Shown here: piece by piece, positions 26,133-63,364 of the stretch | Layout of the letters: each line of letters begins with the position of its first letter | How positions within the stretch are numbered: position 1 is the stretch's first letter | Virus record (IMG/VR): IMGVR_UViG_3300027969_000052 | Span: 62,001-126,000 of that record | Length of the DNA stretch: 64,000 nt | Source of the DNA: a virus | Strand: one strand, 5' to 3' | Position numbers and translations under genes: made by a program | The notes under the pieces: model-generated | The model's input: only the letters and a program-made list of their open reading frames with translations | What the model was told of the DNA's origin: nothing | Databases searched by the model: none

Positions 26133-28586
26133 TTATGCGACCCTTGCGAATCTATTAGACCATCCAGGCTGATTTTCTGCAATCTTACGTTGCATCTCTA
26201 TGGATTGTAATAATAGTTGATTTGTCATAGCCTGTTGCTTATTTAATGCTGTAAACGCATTTGCCATGTTATTCTGGGCTTGTGCATTGCCTGTATTCAT
26301 TGCGCCTTTTACTAGATTAATCATCTGTGGCTCAGTGAGCACTCCTTCTGGGCCATCTACAATTAACGGTGTATCTCTAAAATTTTCAATTAATTTACCG
26401 GTTGCGCCTAATGAGCCACCGTGTCTTTGTTGACTCAGTCCTGCGGCTCTGACTTGATTTTGTCTCCAGTTTGGATCTGTATCTCCTGTTTGCCAATTGC
26501 CTTGTTTATTTTTATTAACACTAACATCGTCGGCAAGTTTTCTAGTACTCTTGTCTAACTCTGCTTTTCTATTAGCACTTTGACTCATGAAATATTGATA
26601 ATCGTCTTCGGTAATATTTCTTATCAACTCCAGGTTTTTTGAATTAGAAGCTAATGCTTCTTGATTATCTTTTCGTATAGCAAGTTCCTCAGTAGTGAGT
26701 GTGCGTGTTTTTTCTATGTCTTCTAATACTTTTAAATTCTCTTGTTGTTTTCGAGATTTGGTAAGAAATTCTTCACGATTGCCATATACTGCCATTGCGT
26801 ATGCTTCTTTTTCTATATCAGCTTTTTTCTTTTGAAGAGCACGACTGTCTTCGGCTAGCTTTTCCTCTTCTTTAAGAAGTGCCCGACGTTTTTCTGCTTC
26901 TGCTTTTCCATACATCCACTCAGGTAACAAATTTTCTTTTAAGTATGTCATTAAGTATTTGAATAACATTTCTATTTTGTCCCCAATTCGAGCGCGACCT
27001 TCTTCTGTTGTTAAATCTTCAAGAAACTCTCCTATCGATTCCATTAGTTTTGCTACGTCTTTACCTAATTTTTCAAAATCAACATCTTTTATAAAATTTG
27101 TAAATTTAGTAACAAGTGTATTAGCGTGTTTTGCCAGCAAATCCATAATTGGAAGCAATGCTTCAGCGATTCTGTTACCTAGCTCTTTCATTTTACGTTG
27201 AGTCTCTACTGCCGTGTCTGATGCTTTTTTATCTGCTTCTGTTTTTTCTATAACTTGTTTAATTTCTTTTTCAATTTGTTCTTGATTAACTTTTCCGTTG
27301 GCAGTATACTTGTTTACAATTTTTTGTATTTCCATTAGCCCTTTTGCGGCTTCTGTACCGCCTTGTCCTGCGGCCGCAACAATATTACCATAGCCTTTCA
27401 TGTCTTTAACAACTCCTGCGATTCCTGCGGCTGTGAGTTTGTCCATCGTAGCTCTTGCTACAGTTACACTAGTTCCATCTGTTACAGACTTAGATAGTCC
27501 TTCAATTGCTTGTTGTCCTTTTCCCATCATACTAAAGAAAGTTTTGCCTTCTTCACTAAACGGTGCGGCAAATCCCATAATGCTGGCTTTAAGAGAATCC
27601 ATAGCACCTTTACCACCTATAGCATTTGCTCTCATTAGTGCCATGTTGGCTTTTTCTCGACCCGCCTCATCAAGAGTTGCTAAGTGAGCTTGCCAACTAG
27701 CTTCTCCGGCTTCTGCTTGCATTTTCTGTTCAAGTGCTTCTCTACTTTCTCCTGTAAGCCTGCTCATAAAATCTAATTCTTTACCATAGTTGGCCGCGGC
27801 TTTGGCTAGGCGTGCTTGTTCATCTGCTGAATTTTTACCTGCTCTCATTCCGTCATTACTAACACGCAGATAGTTACCTAGCATGTCGTTAATTTCTGTA
27901 AATGAATAACCTAACTTTGATAGTTCCGGTCCAAAATTCTTTTGTAAATTTTGATTAATTCCCAATAATGCTTTTGATCCGGATGTTGCACTACCACCTA
28001 ACTGTAACAGCACATCTCCGTTCTTTTTATACATAGTTGCAAGCTCATCAAGCGTTAGATACAAACTTGAAGCTTGGGTTCTTAACCCTGATAGACTCCC
28101 GTTAAGTCCTACGCCTGTTCCGCTAATTTGTTGATAGATATCTAGATTCTTTTCTTGATACTTCATTACTTTTTCAAATACCGAAGCAAGCATTCCAAGC
28201 CCTAATGGTAAATCTGATAATGCTTTAAACAGTCCGCTAGCACGGGCTTCACCATCCGCCAACTCTTCACCAAAGTTAACTAGGTTACCCATAGTCTGAA
28301 CAGCGGCACCGCCCATATCCCATAGGAATCCGCCAAGTGAACTTGCTTTTTTTGCCATTCCGCCTAAAGCGTCTCCAGCAATTCCATTGTCTTTTGCCGC
28401 ATCCTCTATAGACTTTGATGCTTTTTCAAATGCATCAGTGTTAACATCGGCTTTTTTAGCCATAGCTTTAAGTATAGCCGAGTCTTGTTTAGCAATGGCT
28501 AGCATCGCGGCTAGAGTAGATTCGGTAGCCGCGTTGATTAACTCAACATTTTCATTGCCGATTGTACCTTTAACTGTTTGAGCCAT
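26133..28586 (-). CDS. Tail tape-measure protein (gp29-like by role)
   Basis: An 817-aa mainly helical protein with Ala/Gly-rich hydrophobic segments (GMAKKASSLGGFLWDMGGAA), long coiled stretches (residues ~570-640, rich in Glu/Lys/Arg) and a C-terminus ending in WSNRFARVA. These are features of tape-measure proteins that set tail length and line the tail tube. T4 gp29 is 590 aa, so a longer tail is expected if this is the ruler. It sits immediately upstream of the portal gene, unlike in T4. Its promoter region faces the gp26-like gene. Assignment is from composition and context. Confidence 0.75.
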   Translation of the reverse strand: MAQTVKGTIGNENVELINAATESTLAAMLAIAKQDSAILKAMAKKADVNTDAFEKASKSIEDAAKDNGIAGDALGGMAKKASSLGGFLWDMGGAAVQTMGNLVNFGEELADGEARASGLFKALSDLPLGLGMLASVFEKVMKYQEKNLDIYQQISGTGVGLNGSLSGLRTQASSLYLTLDELATMYKKNGDVLLQLGGSATSGSKALLGINQNLQKNFGPELSKLGYSFTEINDMLGNYLRVSNDGMRAGKNSADEQARLAKAAANYGKELDFMSRLTGESREALEQKMQAEAGEASWQAHLATLDEAGREKANMALMRANAIGGKGAMDSLKASIMGFAAPFSEEGKTFFSMMGKGQQAIEGLSKSVTDGTSVTVARATMDKLTAAGIAGVVKDMKGYGNIVAAAGQGGTEAAKGLMEIQKIVNKYTANGKVNQEQIEKEIKQVIEKTEADKKASDTAVETQRKMKELGNRIAEALLPIMDLLAKHANTLVTKFTNFIKDVDFEKLGKDVAKLMESIGEFLEDLTTEEGRARIGDKIEMLFKYLMTYLKENLLPEWMYGKAEAEKRRALLKEEEKLAEDSRALQKKKADIEKEAYAMAVYGNREEFLTKSRKQQENLKVLEDIEKTRTLTTEELAIRKDNQEALASNSKNLELIRNITEDDYQYFMSQSANRKAELDKSTRKLADDVSVNKNKQGNWQTGDTDPNWRQNQVRAAGLSQQRHGGSLGATGKLIENFRDTPLIVDGPEGVLTEPQMINLVKGAMNTGNAQAQNNMANAFTALNKQQAMTNQLLLQSIEMQRKIAENQPGWSNRFARVA

Positions 28587-28660: not shown

Positions 28661-29527
28661 ATGGCAGAAAATACACCAAAAATCAATCCGCTGATGAGCA
28701 TCATGCGTCAGCCCAAAGTCTATATAACGCTTCCTAGCAGGGGAAGATATTACCCAGAGGGCAGTCTTGATCCCACAGTTAATGGAGAATATCCTGTATA
28801 TTCAATGACTGCCAAGGACGAGATAATATTAAAAACTCCCGATGCACTAATGAACGGTCAGGGGTTAGCCGATGTTATTCAAAGTTGTATGCCTAACATT
28901 AAGGATGCGTGGACGGTGCCTGCTATAGATCTAGATGTAATCCTTGTAGCAATTAGATTAGCTACGTATGGTAATACTATGACGTTAACTATCAATCACG
29001 AAACGATGGACGATTCTATGGATTACGAAATCAGCCTCCAGGAAATACTAGAACAACTACAATCAAATACTACTTGGGAAGAACGGTTAGAAATACGGCC
29101 CGACCTTGTAGTATTTTTAAAACCTATTGATTATAAAACACAGACCTACACTCAAATTAGTGAGTTTGAAACCCAACGATTAATGAGTGTTATTAGGGAT
29201 GATACACTTGACGAAGATACTAAATTAGCACAGTTCAAGACGTCATTTGAAAAAATGACTTCAAGAGCAATGGATATCATTGTTAAAGCAGTTCATCGAA
29301 TTGAAAGTGCTAGCGGAACTGTTACTGATCCTGAATTCCTAGAAGAATTTATGAAACAATGCGACAGAGAAGTGTTTGATAAAATCAAAAAACGAATTGC
29401 AGAGTTAAATGAAAAAAATCAGCTCAAACCATTGAGAATCGCTAGCACAGAAGAAATGCTTGCAAAAGGTGCTCCCGAATTTATTCAAGTTCCATTTAGT
29501 TTTGATGCCGCAAATTTTTTCGGATAA
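28661..29527 (+). CDS. 26: Baseplate hub / tail assembly protein, gp26-like
   Basis: A 288-aa protein. YITLPSRGRYYPEGSL, YPVYSMTAKDEIILKTPDAL and VILVAIRLATYGN match the pattern of the T4 gp26-type baseplate family (LPS-x-G-x-Y, MTAKDE, (I/V)R-x-x-(T/S)YG), and the C-terminal FSFDAANFFG also fits. T4 gp26 (208 aa) takes part in hub assembly. The last codons read GCA AAT TTT TTC GGA TAA, which contains a -1 slippery heptamer (29512-29518), and the -1 frame stays open for 77 more codons. A 363-aa fusion product is therefore likely in addition to this form. It is the only plus-strand gene among minus-strand neighbours. Confidence 0.85.
   Translation: MAENTPKINPLMSIMRQPKVYITLPSRGRYYPEGSLDPTVNGEYPVYSMTAKDEIILKTPDALMNGQGLADVIQSCMPNIKDAWTVPAIDLDVILVAIRLATYGNTMTLTINHETMDDSMDYEISLQEILEQLQSNTTWEERLEIRPDLVVFLKPIDYKTQTYTQISEFETQRLMSVIRDDTLDEDTKLAQFKTSFEKMTSRAMDIIVKAVHRIESASGTVTDPEFLEEFMKQCDREVFDKIKKRIAELNEKNQLKPLRIASTEEMLAKGAPEFIQVPFSFDAANFFG
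29512..29518 (+). promoter_or_regulatory. Candidate -1 frameshift slippery site A AAT TTT
   Basis: The heptamer obeys the X-XXY-YYZ rule in the gp26 frame and lies nine bases upstream of the gp26 stop at 29525-29527. Slippage opens the downstream extension. No downstream pseudoknot was resolved by eye. Confidence 0.6.
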
Positions 29528-29751
29528 GGCTTCTATCACTTAGCTATGAGGAAATCTTAAAGCTAGTCAATGAAATGGATCAAGAGGTAGAAGCCTTAAA
29601 AGAAGAGATCTACAGATGCAGTTGGTTTATGAGAGGTGGAGTTTCTGCAGAAACTCTCTGTTCGGTTGATATTAAGGATATTGATATTATCCAAAAACTA
29701 ATCAAACAGAACTTAGAAACTACTAAAGAAAGCGGACTAGCTTTCTTTTAA
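29512..29751 (+). CDS. -1 frame extension of gp26-like protein (gp51 position)
   Basis: In the -1 frame the sequence reads LLSLSYEEILKLVNEMDQEV, then a helical, charged segment with YRCSWFMRGGVS, and ends LETTKESGLAFF before TAA at 29749-29751. The likely conserved YEEILKLV part lies upstream of the only ATG (29575), which itself lacks a ribosome site, so independent initiation would give only a 58-aa truncated product. This arrangement recalls lambda G/GT tail chaperones, where the extension is made by -1 frameshifting. In T4 the gene after 26 is 51, a hub assembly factor, so this may be the equivalent. The coding character is clear, while the frameshift mode is inferred. Confidence 0.65.
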   Translation, partial: KFFRIRLLSLSYEEILKLVNEMDQEVEALKEEIYRCSWFMRGGVSAETLCSVDIKDIDIIQKLIKQNLETTKESGLAFF

Positions 29752-29792
29752 TAGTCCGCTGAGTAATTTACTCGCCCATATTCTTAATGGGC
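29731..29792. terminator. Stacked hairpins between convergent genes
   Basis: Three inverted repeats lie end to end: AGCGGACTA/TAGTCCGCT (29731-29760), GAGTA/TACTC (29761-29773) and GCCCAT/ATGGGC (29774-29792). They cover the stop codons of the plus-strand frameshift extension and the minus-strand disordered protein. No clear U tract follows, so termination or 3'-end protection from both sides is plausible but unproven. Confidence 0.45.
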
Positions 29793-30847
29793 AGTCCTTT
29801 AATGTTTGGTTCTGGAGCAGTTACATCTTGTTGTCCAGCGGCCTTGTTAAAGGCTATCGTGTTGTCGGCAGGTACTTCTTCATCTGCTTGTGCTGGAGGA
29901 AGCCCAGCATTTTTTCTAATAGAATCTAATTGTTGCTCTGCCGAATCGAGTGATTGTTTTGCATAATCGATCACATCTTGACGACGATCTGATCTGACTA
30001 CATTTACAGTCTGCATTGCGTTGTCAATTGCCTGGCGCCCTTGGGGAACTCCGACCTTTTGTTTGTTAGAAGCAGTAGCATTTGTAGTGTTTACGTTGTT
30101 TTGCGGATCTGTCTCGTTGCTTGTTGGAGCGGCCGCATTTCTAACTGCGGCTGGAGTATCTGCAGTCGGTTCAGCTTGTCCTACTTCCGGGCTCGTCGGT
30201 TGTGCAACATCAGTCGGATCAGCTTGAGATGCTTGAGGTGCTTGTTGCACTTGAGCGCCAGCATGTTGCTGTGTTGCGGCCTTGATAGCTTTGGCAACTA
30301 TATTCATTTTTAAGGTATCGCTCGGAGCTTCAACCAACATGTTTAAAATATTACGGATACTTTCTTGGGCTGTTGGAGCAACTGCGGCTGGACTGGTTCC
30401 GGTTACACCAGGATTTCTGGCATTAGACCACACAGAAGGTTTTTGTTCTGGGGCAGGTTCCTCCATCGGTCCGCCAGCCTCCTGCGGAGTTGGATGTGTA
30501 ATATCATCGTCTGCTGGCTCGTCGACTTGAGTAGATTGAGCGATTACCTGTTTAGCATTATCTAACGGATAACCTTTCTTTTGCAAGTAAGCAAGTAGAC
30601 TTGCTTCTGTAGGTTGCTCACCTGTTTGCCCCAATAGCTTTTGATAACCAGCCATTACTTGATTAGCTAACGCACCTACATTTAGACGTCCTTGTGCTTG
30701 TGCGCTAAAGTTAGGTGTAATACCTGTTGTCTTATTGATTAAGTTACCAGTACCTGCCGCTACTTTGTTTCCTAATTTACTTAGAAAACCCATAGGCTGA
30801 GCTTCGTTAACATTACCAGATTCGTTTACAAGTTCATTAATTTGCAT
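29768..30847 (-). CDS. Low-complexity Ala/Pro/Gln-rich protein of unknown function
   Basis: Start chosen at 30847 (MQINELVNESGN, 359 aa) because GGAG lies just upstream and a CATAAATA motif (30868-30875) is 20 bases upstream. An ATG 17 codons earlier would lie upstream of that promoter. The N-terminal ~110 residues are ordered-looking (helical, NKVAAGTGNLINKTTG). The remainder is Ala/Pro/Gln/Thr-rich with long acidic runs, so largely disordered. There is a helical patch near the middle (SIRNILNMLVEAPSDTL). No family was recognised. A virion-internal or assembly role is a guess from the late-type promoter. Confidence 0.7.
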   Translation of the reverse strand: MQINELVNESGNVNEAQPMGFLSKLGNKVAAGTGNLINKTTGITPNFSAQAQGRLNVGALANQVMAGYQKLLGQTGEQPTEASLLAYLQKKGYPLDNAKQVIAQSTQVDEPADDDITHPTPQEAGGPMEEPAPEQKPSVWSNARNPGVTGTSPAAVAPTAQESIRNILNMLVEAPSDTLKMNIVAKAIKAATQQHAGAQVQQAPQASQADPTDVAQPTSPEVGQAEPTADTPAAVRNAAAPTSNETDPQNNVNTTNATASNKQKVGVPQGRQAIDNAMQTVNVVRSDRRQDVIDYAKQSLDSAEQQLDSIRKNAGLPPAQADEEVPADNTIAFNKAAGQQDVTAPEPNIKGLPIKNMGE

Positions 30848-30867
30848 TTTATAGTCTCCAACAAGGA

Positions 30868-30875
30868 TATTTATG
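30868..30875 (-). promoter_or_regulatory. Late-promoter-like motif CATAAATA
   Basis: 20 bases before the ATG at 30847, with a GGAG ribosome site in between. This geometry matches a T4 late promoter well and decides the start codon. Confidence 0.55.
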
Positions 30876-30880
30876 TTATT

Positions 30881-30923
30881 AAATGAGCTAACGCTCATTT
30901 GCTTCTGCGCTTCGCTTGAAGCA
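30881..30923. repeat. Two hairpins upstream of the disordered-protein promoter
   Basis: AAATGAGC/GCTCATTT (8-bp stem, loop TAAC, 30881-30900) and TGCTTC/GAAGCA (30900-30923). The second is followed on the plus strand by ATTTTT, a terminator-like tail, although no plus-strand gene leads into it. Confidence 0.5.
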
Positions 30924-31331: not shown

Positions 31332-31760
31332 CTAGATTTTGTTGATTATGTGAGAGCCATGGACACGGACTGAGATTTGTCCGTTATAGTAATCTGCTGA
31401 TTCTAATACTTTGCGGTTGAATTGTTCAAGGGCCTCGATGTAAGAGCATACTGCTTTGCTTTTGCAATAATGCAGGATCTCTCGCGTGAATTGTTCTTTG
31501 CCTAATTTTAAAACGTCTGTGTTTAATTCTAAGTTAGATCCGTAATATTCTTGCCAGTCGCTGTCAATTTTACTACGTATTTTCTTTTTCTTCTTGTTGC
31601 CGTTCTTTAACTTTACAGTCTTGTAGGTCGTTTTACTAAACTTTGCTAATTTTTTGCCAATATACATGCGCCCCGTGACGGTGTTAGTGATAAGATAAAC
31701 AAATCCAACACAGTCCTCGGGTAGTTGTTCAATGACAGTACCTTGATAAGTCCAAGACAT
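31332..31760 (-). CDS. GIY-YIG-type endonuclease, probably free-standing homing nuclease
   Basis: A 142-aa protein. The segment GFVYLITNTVTGRMYIGKK (residues ~19-37) matches the GIY-YIG core (here VYL...YIG), followed by a Lys-rich basic stretch and WQEYYGSN, a pattern found in small phage GIY-YIG nucleases. The family cuts DNA and often spreads its own gene by homing (T4 Seg proteins). The start overlaps the 64-aa gene stop (TAATG), so it is translated with the gp46/47 operon. The adjacent hairpin-rich non-coding block could be related to its insertion. Whether it is active is unknown. Confidence 0.75.
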   Translation of the reverse strand: MSWTYQGTVIEQLPEDCVGFVYLITNTVTGRMYIGKKLAKFSKTTYKTVKLKNGNKKKKKIRSKIDSDWQEYYGSNLELNTDVLKLGKEQFTREILHYCKSKAVCSYIEALEQFNRKVLESADYYNGQISVRVHGSHIINKI

Positions 31761-60751: not shown

Positions 60752-63364
60752 ATGACAAAAATAACACAACTACCAGTTGTATCAACAATGGCCGATCAGA
60801 GCGTGTTCGTTGTTGTTGACAACGGAGTAACAAAAAAATTAACTTACTCGGCTCTTAAAACAACCCTAAAAGGTGACAAGGGTGAAACTGGAGAAACAGG
60901 CGCCAAAGGCGATACTGGAGCCCAGGGAGATAAAGGAGATAAAGGTGACACAGGTGCGCAAGGTCCAGTAGGTCCGTTGGCTCCATTTAGTACTGCTACT
61001 GATATACGTCTCGGCGGTATTAAGATCGGTACAGGTGTAAACGTAACAGGTGACGGAACATTAAGTGTTCCGATTGTTACAATTACTACTGCAACTGCAC
61101 TAGTACCTGGCGTAGTTACTCCTGGATCAGGGCTTCAATTAATTGGCGAAAATGCCGCTCTTACATTAAATGCTAGACTATCAAGACCTGCATACAAAGA
61201 ATTAAGAATTGTTGCATCCGCTGGAAATACTTCGGGTTACGGTATTGAAGGTTATACAGGTTCAAACCCGAGCGTTACTGGAATTTTACCGGGAAGCACA
61301 GTTGCTTTTGTGATTCCTAATCAACCATCACATCCTGTACAAATTAGGACAGCCCCAGGCGGCGCCGCAGTAACAGAGGGCGATTGGTTATGGGTATCTA
61401 ACACCGGTACAAGCGTTGCTGGCGCAGGCGCTAACTTTGTCGGTCGATTCAACGGTACAATGTTTTGGACTGTGCCAGATGCCCCGTCACAGAGTGTTGT
61501 TTACTATCAGTGTATTTTTCACCCAGGTATGCTCGGGTCAATTGCAATTAAGAATGATGCACAAATTATTGATGGTAGAATAACATCGGGATTGGCCGCA
61601 GTTGCACAAGATATATTACCAGACGGTAATGATACAAGAAATCTTGGTAGCGCATCTAAGCGATGGAATACTCTTTTTGTTGGCCCTGATAGTATTGATA
61701 TCAATGGCACTCAGCTTACATACTCTGGTGGTAAGATTGCATCTAGTGGCGGTTTTGAATTAGGTAAATCTATTGTAGCAACTGCGCTAACATCGTCTGG
61801 TAGTTTTAGATCTGCACCGGTAATTAAAGTCACTGATGCAACTGGAAGCGGATTCCAAGCAACAACTTCGATTGTTCCAACATCTATAGATTCTTTAACT
61901 TATACAGTCTTAGATACTACTAGTACATATTGGTTCCGTCCATCGGATACAGTTACAATCGACTTTACAGGTGGCGATGGTACAGGTGCACAGGCTTCTG
62001 CCGATATGGGATTGTATATTAAATCTCCTGTTCTGTCTTATAATTCACCTCCTGTTGCATCATTAGTTTTTGCTAATCAAACAACTCTTAATGCCCAGGC
62101 ACAATTACAAATTAGTGATGCTCAGATTGTACAGCGTTTGGCAGATTTCTTACCGTATGTTGCATTGACTGAATTGCGAGATGGCCTTCCAACTTTCCGT
62201 GATCCTCAAGTTAATCAAACTAAAGCGTTAAAATATACTGACGTAGATATTCCTAGCGGAGTAGTAACATTTGATATTAACTTGGCATTTGCTACAATTC
62301 CTTTAGGAACTTATTTGTTTGAAGTCCCTCAATTAGTTATTGCTGACGGAAACTATCCGCTAATCTGCGAAACAGTACAGGTAGGTAAATTAGTTGCCAA
62401 CGGCGGGCAATACAGCTGGTATCTTGCTAACCGATTAGATGAAGGTCAGCTACCAAACGGGACTGTTGAGGGAGATTTTGTTCCTGTAACCTGTTCGGCA
62501 CTAGACAATGCCGGCCAGCCGGGGTATTGGTATCTAAGCTCAAATCTTGACGGAACACAGAAAAATTTTACAGAAGTGTTATATGGGGTTAGAGGAGTTA
62601 GTTTAGATAATCCTGGATCAGATTACACACAAGCTCCGATTTTTAATATTAAAGCTAACGGAGTTACGAAAGCACAAGGGTCATCGGTGCTTTCAGCTAC
62701 TCCAGTATCTGCGATCAGCATCTCAGCATTTGGTAGTAGCTATACCCCTTCAGCATCAGTAGTTCTACAAGGAGCCCATACCGGTCCTTTAGTTACTGGC
62801 CCTACCTCAGATGCAAATATGTGGAGAGTTACTACAAGTTTTTATCCGTTAGCCACAACTCGAGCCCCCGGACAAACGATATTTGTTCACAATATAGATG
62901 TTACTGGCTCAGCTACTCCGAGTAACGGACAACGGGTTAGAAATGCAACAACAGGTGTATTACTACCCGGAACTATAGTTTCAGTTTCTCCTGTATGGAA
63001 TACTAATAATGTTCGCTTATATCAAGTAAACATGAGCCAAAGTGTTACTGTTGCAAACGACAATTATATCTCTTTTGGTACCTATGAAGCAGAAATTACA
63101 CCCGAACAGCGTACAGCAGAACCAGTATTACCGGCAACAAAAACTAAGTTAGGTACAGTAATAGTTGGCGACGGACTAAACGTTGCAAACGGTACAATAT
63201 CGTGGAAATTAGCAGATGTACCCGCAACTAGTAAAGGCCAAGCGGGTGATCAAGAAGGTTCTTTAGCCGCAAGTAGCTCGCATATCTATTATTGCATAGC
63301 GGACTATACTGACGGTGTAGCAAACATCTGGAAGCGTGTAGCATTGACTACACAAACCTGGTAA
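60752..63364 (+). CDS. Tail fibre with collagen-like stem and cupredoxin-like domain, 870 aa
   Basis: The N-terminus (MTKITQLPVVSTMADQSVFV) is a typical virion-attachment start for marine phage fibres. Residues ~41-76 are twelve uninterrupted G-x-y triplets of collagen type. Residues ~165-265 form a cupredoxin-like domain with SHPVQIR and VVYYQCIFHPGMLGSI, carrying His, Cys, His and Met in the order of amicyanin-type copper sites. RNLGSASKRWNTLFVG follows (~295), then beta-rich modules with G-S-x-Y-P repeats, and the C-terminus YYCIADYTDGVANIWKRVAL is a common fibre ending. It probably forms a trimeric fibre attached to the giant wedge. Whether metal is bound is unknown. Confidence 0.8.
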   Translation: MTKITQLPVVSTMADQSVFVVVDNGVTKKLTYSALKTTLKGDKGETGETGAKGDTGAQGDKGDKGDTGAQGPVGPLAPFSTATDIRLGGIKIGTGVNVTGDGTLSVPIVTITTATALVPGVVTPGSGLQLIGENAALTLNARLSRPAYKELRIVASAGNTSGYGIEGYTGSNPSVTGILPGSTVAFVIPNQPSHPVQIRTAPGGAAVTEGDWLWVSNTGTSVAGAGANFVGRFNGTMFWTVPDAPSQSVVYYQCIFHPGMLGSIAIKNDAQIIDGRITSGLAAVAQDILPDGNDTRNLGSASKRWNTLFVGPDSIDINGTQLTYSGGKIASSGGFELGKSIVATALTSSGSFRSAPVIKVTDATGSGFQATTSIVPTSIDSLTYTVLDTTSTYWFRPSDTVTIDFTGGDGTGAQASADMGLYIKSPVLSYNSPPVASLVFANQTTLNAQAQLQISDAQIVQRLADFLPYVALTELRDGLPTFRDPQVNQTKALKYTDVDIPSGVVTFDINLAFATIPLGTYLFEVPQLVIADGNYPLICETVQVGKLVANGGQYSWYLANRLDEGQLPNGTVEGDFVPVTCSALDNAGQPGYWYLSSNLDGTQKNFTEVLYGVRGVSLDNPGSDYTQAPIFNIKANGVTKAQGSSVLSATPVSAISISAFGSSYTPSASVVLQGAHTGPLVTGPTSDANMWRVTTSFYPLATTRAPGQTIFVHNIDVTGSATPSNGQRVRNATTGVLLPGTIVSVSPVWNTNNVRLYQVNMSQSVTVANDNYISFGTYEAEITPEQRTAEPVLPATKTKLGTVIVGDGLNVANGTISWKLADVPATSKGQAGDQEGSLAASSSHIYYCIADYTDGVANIWKRVALTTQTW
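60872..60979 (+). repeat. Collagen-like G-x-y triplets
   Basis: Twelve consecutive triplets (GDK, GET, GET, GAK, GDT, GAQ, GDK, GDK, GDT, GAQ, GPV, GPL). Lys/Glu/Asp-rich triplets of this kind form stable collagen helices without hydroxyproline, consistent with a trimeric stem. Confidence 0.9.

Follow-up and report, generated by a model that had tools for sequence, protein, structure and literature searches.

The -1 frameshifts of tail assembly chaperones, those of lambda gpG/gpGT among them, were reportedly treated by Xu, Hendrix and Duda in 2004. The lambda arrangement (a short chaperone, a -1 shift near the end of its gene and a C-domain on the long form; PMC5009743) is, with other such chaperone frameshifts, also the subject of passages in PMC9024508, and a 2016 review describes G-T frameshifting as widely conserved among long-tailed phages, T4 excepted (PMC5009743). 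For T4-like phages, a passage in PMC10885494 cites Vladimirov, Gautam and Davidson 2022 (Virology 566:9-15) on the pairing of a short gene with a longer fusion gene, and a passage in PMC12846349 cites the same work on poly-T slippery signals in their TAC-N genes. For Vandenendeviridae and Andersonviridae, PMC12846349 itself proposes a -1 frameshift where TAC-N ends, on the T-rich motif GTTTTT; the frame that follows carries a hypothetical-gene annotation.

In this paper, we have tried to look closely at the end of just one gp26-like gene. It lies in a stretch of 64,000 nucleotides (the window, positions 62,001 to 126,000 of IMG/VR record IMGVR_UViG_3300027969_000052), which comes from an uncultivated virus record of 129 kb that carries T4-type genes for a portal (phrog_213), SbcC/SbcD-like subunits and a late sigma factor and in which only one gp26-like gene was found; as the record is incomplete, a separate long copy could lie elsewhere. 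How might such a gene make two proteins? We argue that it very probably does so by programmed -1 ribosomal frameshifting at U_UUU_UUC, aided by an RNA stem, to give a 288-aa gp26-like protein (TAC-N) and a 363-aa fusion (TAC-NC) with a gp51-like C-domain. Three observations support this: conservation of the site, selection on -1 coding across the junction, and a stem that covaries.

The locus shares with lambda gpG/gpGT a short chaperone gene, an in-phase heptamer near its end, a C-domain in the -1 frame and an adjacent tape-measure-like gene; it differs in having an unrelated sequence, a gp26-family chaperone, a divergently oriented tape-measure-like gene and U_UUU_UUC as its heptamer. With T4 it shares the proteins, since the window protein is gp26-like (PF12322, phrog_150) and T4 gp51 has an N-part and a C-part as the proposed fusion would. 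In T4, however, genes 26 and 51 are separate, as the original prediction for this DNA had stated, and they are divergent, on opposite strands, with no slip site found at the end of gene 26. The T4-like chaperone genes of Vladimirov 2022, as cited, have the same short and long forms and poly-T signals, but the title of that work favours a mechanism other than frameshifting, and the passages citing it mention no downstream stem. The Vandenendeviridae and Andersonviridae genes likewise combine a proposed -1 shift at a T-rich motif ending TAC-N with a following frame that is listed as a hypothetical gene, although the families and the motif are different and the argument there is an open -1 frame plus a conserved motif (PMC12846349). 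Because of these accounts (PMC5009743 and the passages in PMC10885494 and PMC12846349), we take the mechanism to be of a known kind, one that has probably been partly described for T4-like phages.

Results

The gp26-Like Gene and Its Neighbors

The features of the locus are collected in Table 1. The gene ends GCA AAT TTT TTC GGA TAA. Its N-domain profile matches the T4 gp26 group (probability 96%, E 6e-9), and a structure predicted from the window and related loci only (pLDDT 85) has a fold that matches predicted T4-like baseplate hub assembly proteins.

Table 1. Features at the 3' end of the gp26-like gene, in window coordinates
Feature	Position	Strand	Basis
Divergent neighbor, 817-aa tape-measure-like protein, presumed client	26133..28586	-	phrog_21358 tail length tape measure, 2.8e-5
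gp26-like gene, zero-frame product 288 aa (short chaperone form, TAC-N)	28661..29527	+	ORF; PF12322, 5.4e-8; phrog_150 baseplate hub, 9e-12
-1 frame, open stop to stop	29506..29751	+	frame reading; purifying selection
Overlapping heptamer A_AAT_TTT, named by the original prediction	29512..29518	+	read in window sequence
Slippery heptamer T_TTT_TTC (U_UUU_UUC), zero-frame codons AAT TTT TTC	29515..29521	+	slippery phase in relatives
Post-slip part of -1 frame, 76 codons, leading to putative 363-aa fusion (TAC-NC)	29521-29748	+	lengths computed
Zero-frame stop TAA	29525..29527	+	window sequence
Stem 5' arm, core GGCTTCTATC at 29528-29537	29525..29537	+	MFE -25.7 kcal/mol, z -3.6; covariation
First ATG of -1 frame, in stem loop; unlikely start	29575..29577	+	conserved -1 protein starts upstream of ATG
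Stem 3' arm, core GGTAGAAGCC at 29586-29595	29586..29598	+	MFE -25.7 kcal/mol, z -3.6; covariation

The gene adjoins the tape-measure-like gene, as one would expect of a tail assembly chaperone pair; pEa_SNUABM_47 and RaK2 have an annotated tape measure in the corresponding position, and the gene order is shared with named phages. On the other side, convergent with the presumably frameshifted gene, is a 376-aa Ala/Gln/Pro-rich protein with no PHROG match (29768-30898, minus strand). Beyond that lies a 142-aa protein (31332-31760, minus strand) matched best by a PHROG called NAD synthetase, a family name that is probably misleading; homing endonuclease families also match it.

One Slippery Site, Conserved Among Relatives

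The relatives that we compared, loci from IMG/VR together with named phages, came to 113 distinct loci in which the gp26 3' end could be read, and T_TTT_TTC lies in slippery phase near the gp26 stop in 112 of them. The sole exception (L126) has a local duplication and retains the site as GAT TTT TTC GGA TGA. Elsewhere in the same gp26 genes, TTTTTTC turns up 6 times in 93,134 nt and not once in slippery phase. The codon that precedes the site varies (AAT, GAT, AGT, ACT, CAT, GCT, CGT or TCT) with its final T invariant, and the two Phe codons at the site are invariably TTT and then TTC, though TTT makes up 78% of the Phe codons in these genes. In other words, the heptamer is conserved beyond the protein sequence, its synonymous positions being fixed, and its occurrence at the gp26 end is not chance.

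The original prediction had put the slip at the overlapping A_AAT_TTT. That heptamer does stand in slippery phase in the window, six bases (TTC GGA) before the stop rather than the nine first counted, but it is retained in only 37 of 112 relatives and is thereby ruled out as the operative site. Since T_TTT_TTC is kept almost everywhere and in-phase copies elsewhere are nil, the conserved site is U_UUU_UUC.

How far does this site reach? Together with an open -1 frame, it is present in eight named jumbo phages: Atu_ph07, PA5oct, Phosso, 121Q, RaK2, XbC2, pEa_SNUABM_47 and Munch. In the T4 superfamily proper, TTTTTTC occurs in P-SSM5, phiAS5 and LG08, with variants in vB_VmeM-32 (TTTTTTT) and RL38J1 (TTTTTTG), and among cyanophage/Aeh1-type loci (L066, L151-L234), all 68 distinct ones have TTTTTTC in slippery phase at the end of gene 26, with the -1 frame encoding the gp51 C-domain.

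Annotation of the C-domain in the jumbo phages takes several forms: it is absent (PA5oct, RaK2), shortened (Atu_ph07, Munch) or given as a separate hypothetical gene, and the records of the four phages just named leave it unannotated or begin it at a later internal start. P-SSM5 has its gp51 annotated as a separate small gene.

Coding in the -1 Frame

The -1 frame is open upstream of the site in the window, as had been predicted, although the part read after the slip comes to 76 sense codons and not 77. Throughout the 112 relatives, it is open through the slip site and reads FFR at the junction in all but one, which has FFQ; the zero frame after FF varies (G, A, V, D, E or R). Over 32 independent pairs of relatives, dN/dS was 0.23 for -1 codons 5-19, which lie mostly past the gp26 stop, as against 0.85 and 1.93 for the same bases in the other frames, and it was 0.13 for -1 codons from 20 on. 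Purifying selection acts on the -1 codons past this stop.

One might still imagine that this frame is a remnant, or open by chance, and yields no product at all. Such a notion could draw on Pfam and PHROGs, neither of which gave a family for the -1 protein at a credible level (nor did Foldseek, run with the predicted structure of the domain against the PDB, return any match). It has to contend, however, with purifying selection, with a frame that is open in every relative and with a confident all-helical model (pLDDT 86), and we regard it as next to impossible.

A weightier objection is that the C-domain could be a separate small gene, coupled in translation at or just after the gp26 stop, from either a weak start or an ATGA overlap, and that no fusion is made. 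Candidate starts do exist: an early ATG overlaps the gp26 stop in 16 of 112 relatives, a TTG stands at -1 codon 6 in 39 of 112, and an ATG follows the site by five codons in 64 of the 68 cyanophage/Aeh1-type loci. Pseudomonas phage Cygsa01 (L069, 2309) is a plain case, without a slippery site and with TAATG as a coupled start of its gp51-like gene; judging from that sequence, it is a possible loss of frameshifting. But in the window, the -1 frame has no GTG, TTG or ATG before 29575, and 13 of 112 relatives have no start codon upstream of the W.[MI]RG motif; the relatives outside these 13 and the 16 with an early ATG offer later candidates only, and nearly all candidates are without an SD-like motif. 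The first ATG of the -1 frame in the window, which the original prediction had set aside, is an unlikely start: all that precedes it by way of a ribosome site is a GAGG 23 nt upstream, too far for the usual spacing, and the conserved -1 protein begins ahead of it. Separate initiation also fails to account for the conserved junction, because the heptamer and FFR sit upstream of all starts, where a separate gene would have no need of them, and T4 gp51 has N and C in a single chain. That a separate gene explains the locus thus seems to us very improbable. The original prediction had proposed a comparison of homologous loci, and what these conserve is the heptamer, its phase, the open -1 frame and a -1 protein that starts before any ATG.

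A Covarying Stem Downstream of the Site

A stem starts 3-6 nt after the heptamer. The 60 nt downstream of the site fold with a mean z of -1.81 (control stretches, about -0.04 to -0.35), and against a null whose randomisations preserve the -1 protein and draw on the gene's own codon usage, the mean z is -3.2, with 2 or fewer of 100 randomisations equally stable in 74 of 94 sequences. In its main form (57 sequences), the stem has 12 pairs, of which 92.5% are formed versus 34-55% in slid controls, a figure biased towards the stem, which was first spotted in these same sequences. The stronger evidence is the protein-preserving null together with the compensatory changes: the eight core pairs are intact in 57 of 57 sequences, and three of the eight have changed on both sides. 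RNAalifold recovers the same helix. A strong helix a few nucleotides after the heptamer occurs in 80 of 109 relatives and in 0 of 109 control stretches, counts that are not independent events, because the sequences share kinship. The cyanophage/Aeh1-type loci have a downstream hairpin as well (folding z -3.4 versus -0.7 in controls).

The stem is not the same everywhere. Some relatives have the same 5' arm and a nearer 3' arm; in L007, L010, L024, L138, L140, L144 and L149, the span is about 36-55 nt versus 68-74, as if the structure had been retained while the partner site shifted. Folding against the protein-preserving null found only a weak stem, or none, in RaK2, pEa_SNUABM_47 and Munch, so not every phage needs it. 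A search of Rfam found no credible match for it. The stem fits the stimulatory structure of a -1 site, a common but not universal feature of such sites, and its stimulation is putative.

Might the shift be made by RNA polymerase instead, slipping on the T run to leave one extra U in an mRNA that is then translated normally into the fusion? An extra U would yield the identical FFR junction. The conserved run, however, is exactly six T followed by C, and a run of six is short for efficient bacterial transcriptional slippage, while ribosomal -1 sites are usually built with just such a stem, set off by a spacer of 3-6 nt. We therefore give slippage of the polymerase very little credence and return to slippage of the ribosome.

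Discussion

What would happen at this gene end? We infer the slippage itself, and its efficiency, from the features described above. The ribosome would slip one base back at U_UUU_UUC near the end of the gp26-like gene, and the RNA stem 3-6 nt downstream would assist it. TAC-N would presumably be the major product and TAC-NC, with its gp51-like C-domain, the minor one. On the model of lambda gpG/gpGT, the N-domain that the two share would be the part that binds the tape measure protein, with the C-domain bringing in tail tube subunits. That the gp26-like products are chaperones at all is suggested by homology and analogy.

The gp26 and gp51 names given to the two parts of the proposed fusion also fit. 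The T4 gp51 C-domain (aa 200-243) matches the -1 domains of cyanophage/Aeh1-type relatives (E 6.5e-7), whereas the window's own -1 domain, set against the profile of cyanophage, Aeh1 and Rhizobium-phage gp51-type C-domains, gives E 0.21, which is not significant, and the only match from the window's clade is that of L034 (8e-4), both of these last E-values coming from a small database. The N-domains of T4 gp26 and gp51 are also alike (E 2e-6). Because its C-part matches the -1 domains and its N-part resembles gp26, T4 gp51 (L056, 6480-7229) resembles a ready-made long form; that is, it looks like a gp26-type N-domain joined to a -1-type C-domain.

One could carry this further and suppose that the T4 superfamily, from cyanophages to jumbo phages of 350-490 kb, had as its ancestral state a U_UUU_UUC frameshift and a downstream stem at the gp26/gp51 junction, and that T4 is derived, its chaperone gene having been duplicated and the long form frozen as gene 51. 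On this view, the stem would stay where it is and equally strong even as its 3' arm shifts within the coding sequence. We find ourselves evenly divided on this.

In the open-access literature, we found nothing on the window's lineage, on an exact comparison of U_UUU_UUC or on the covarying stem, although absence there is weak evidence. As far as that literature shows, the lineage, the exact heptamer, the stem and the mis-annotation of the C-domain are apparently new.

Taken this way, the analysis places the mechanism in many relatives of T4, with an exact site and a stimulator that can be tested, and it points to a second domain that public annotations either lack or start at the wrong place. 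It becomes possible to test directly how frameshifting was lost in T4, and when.
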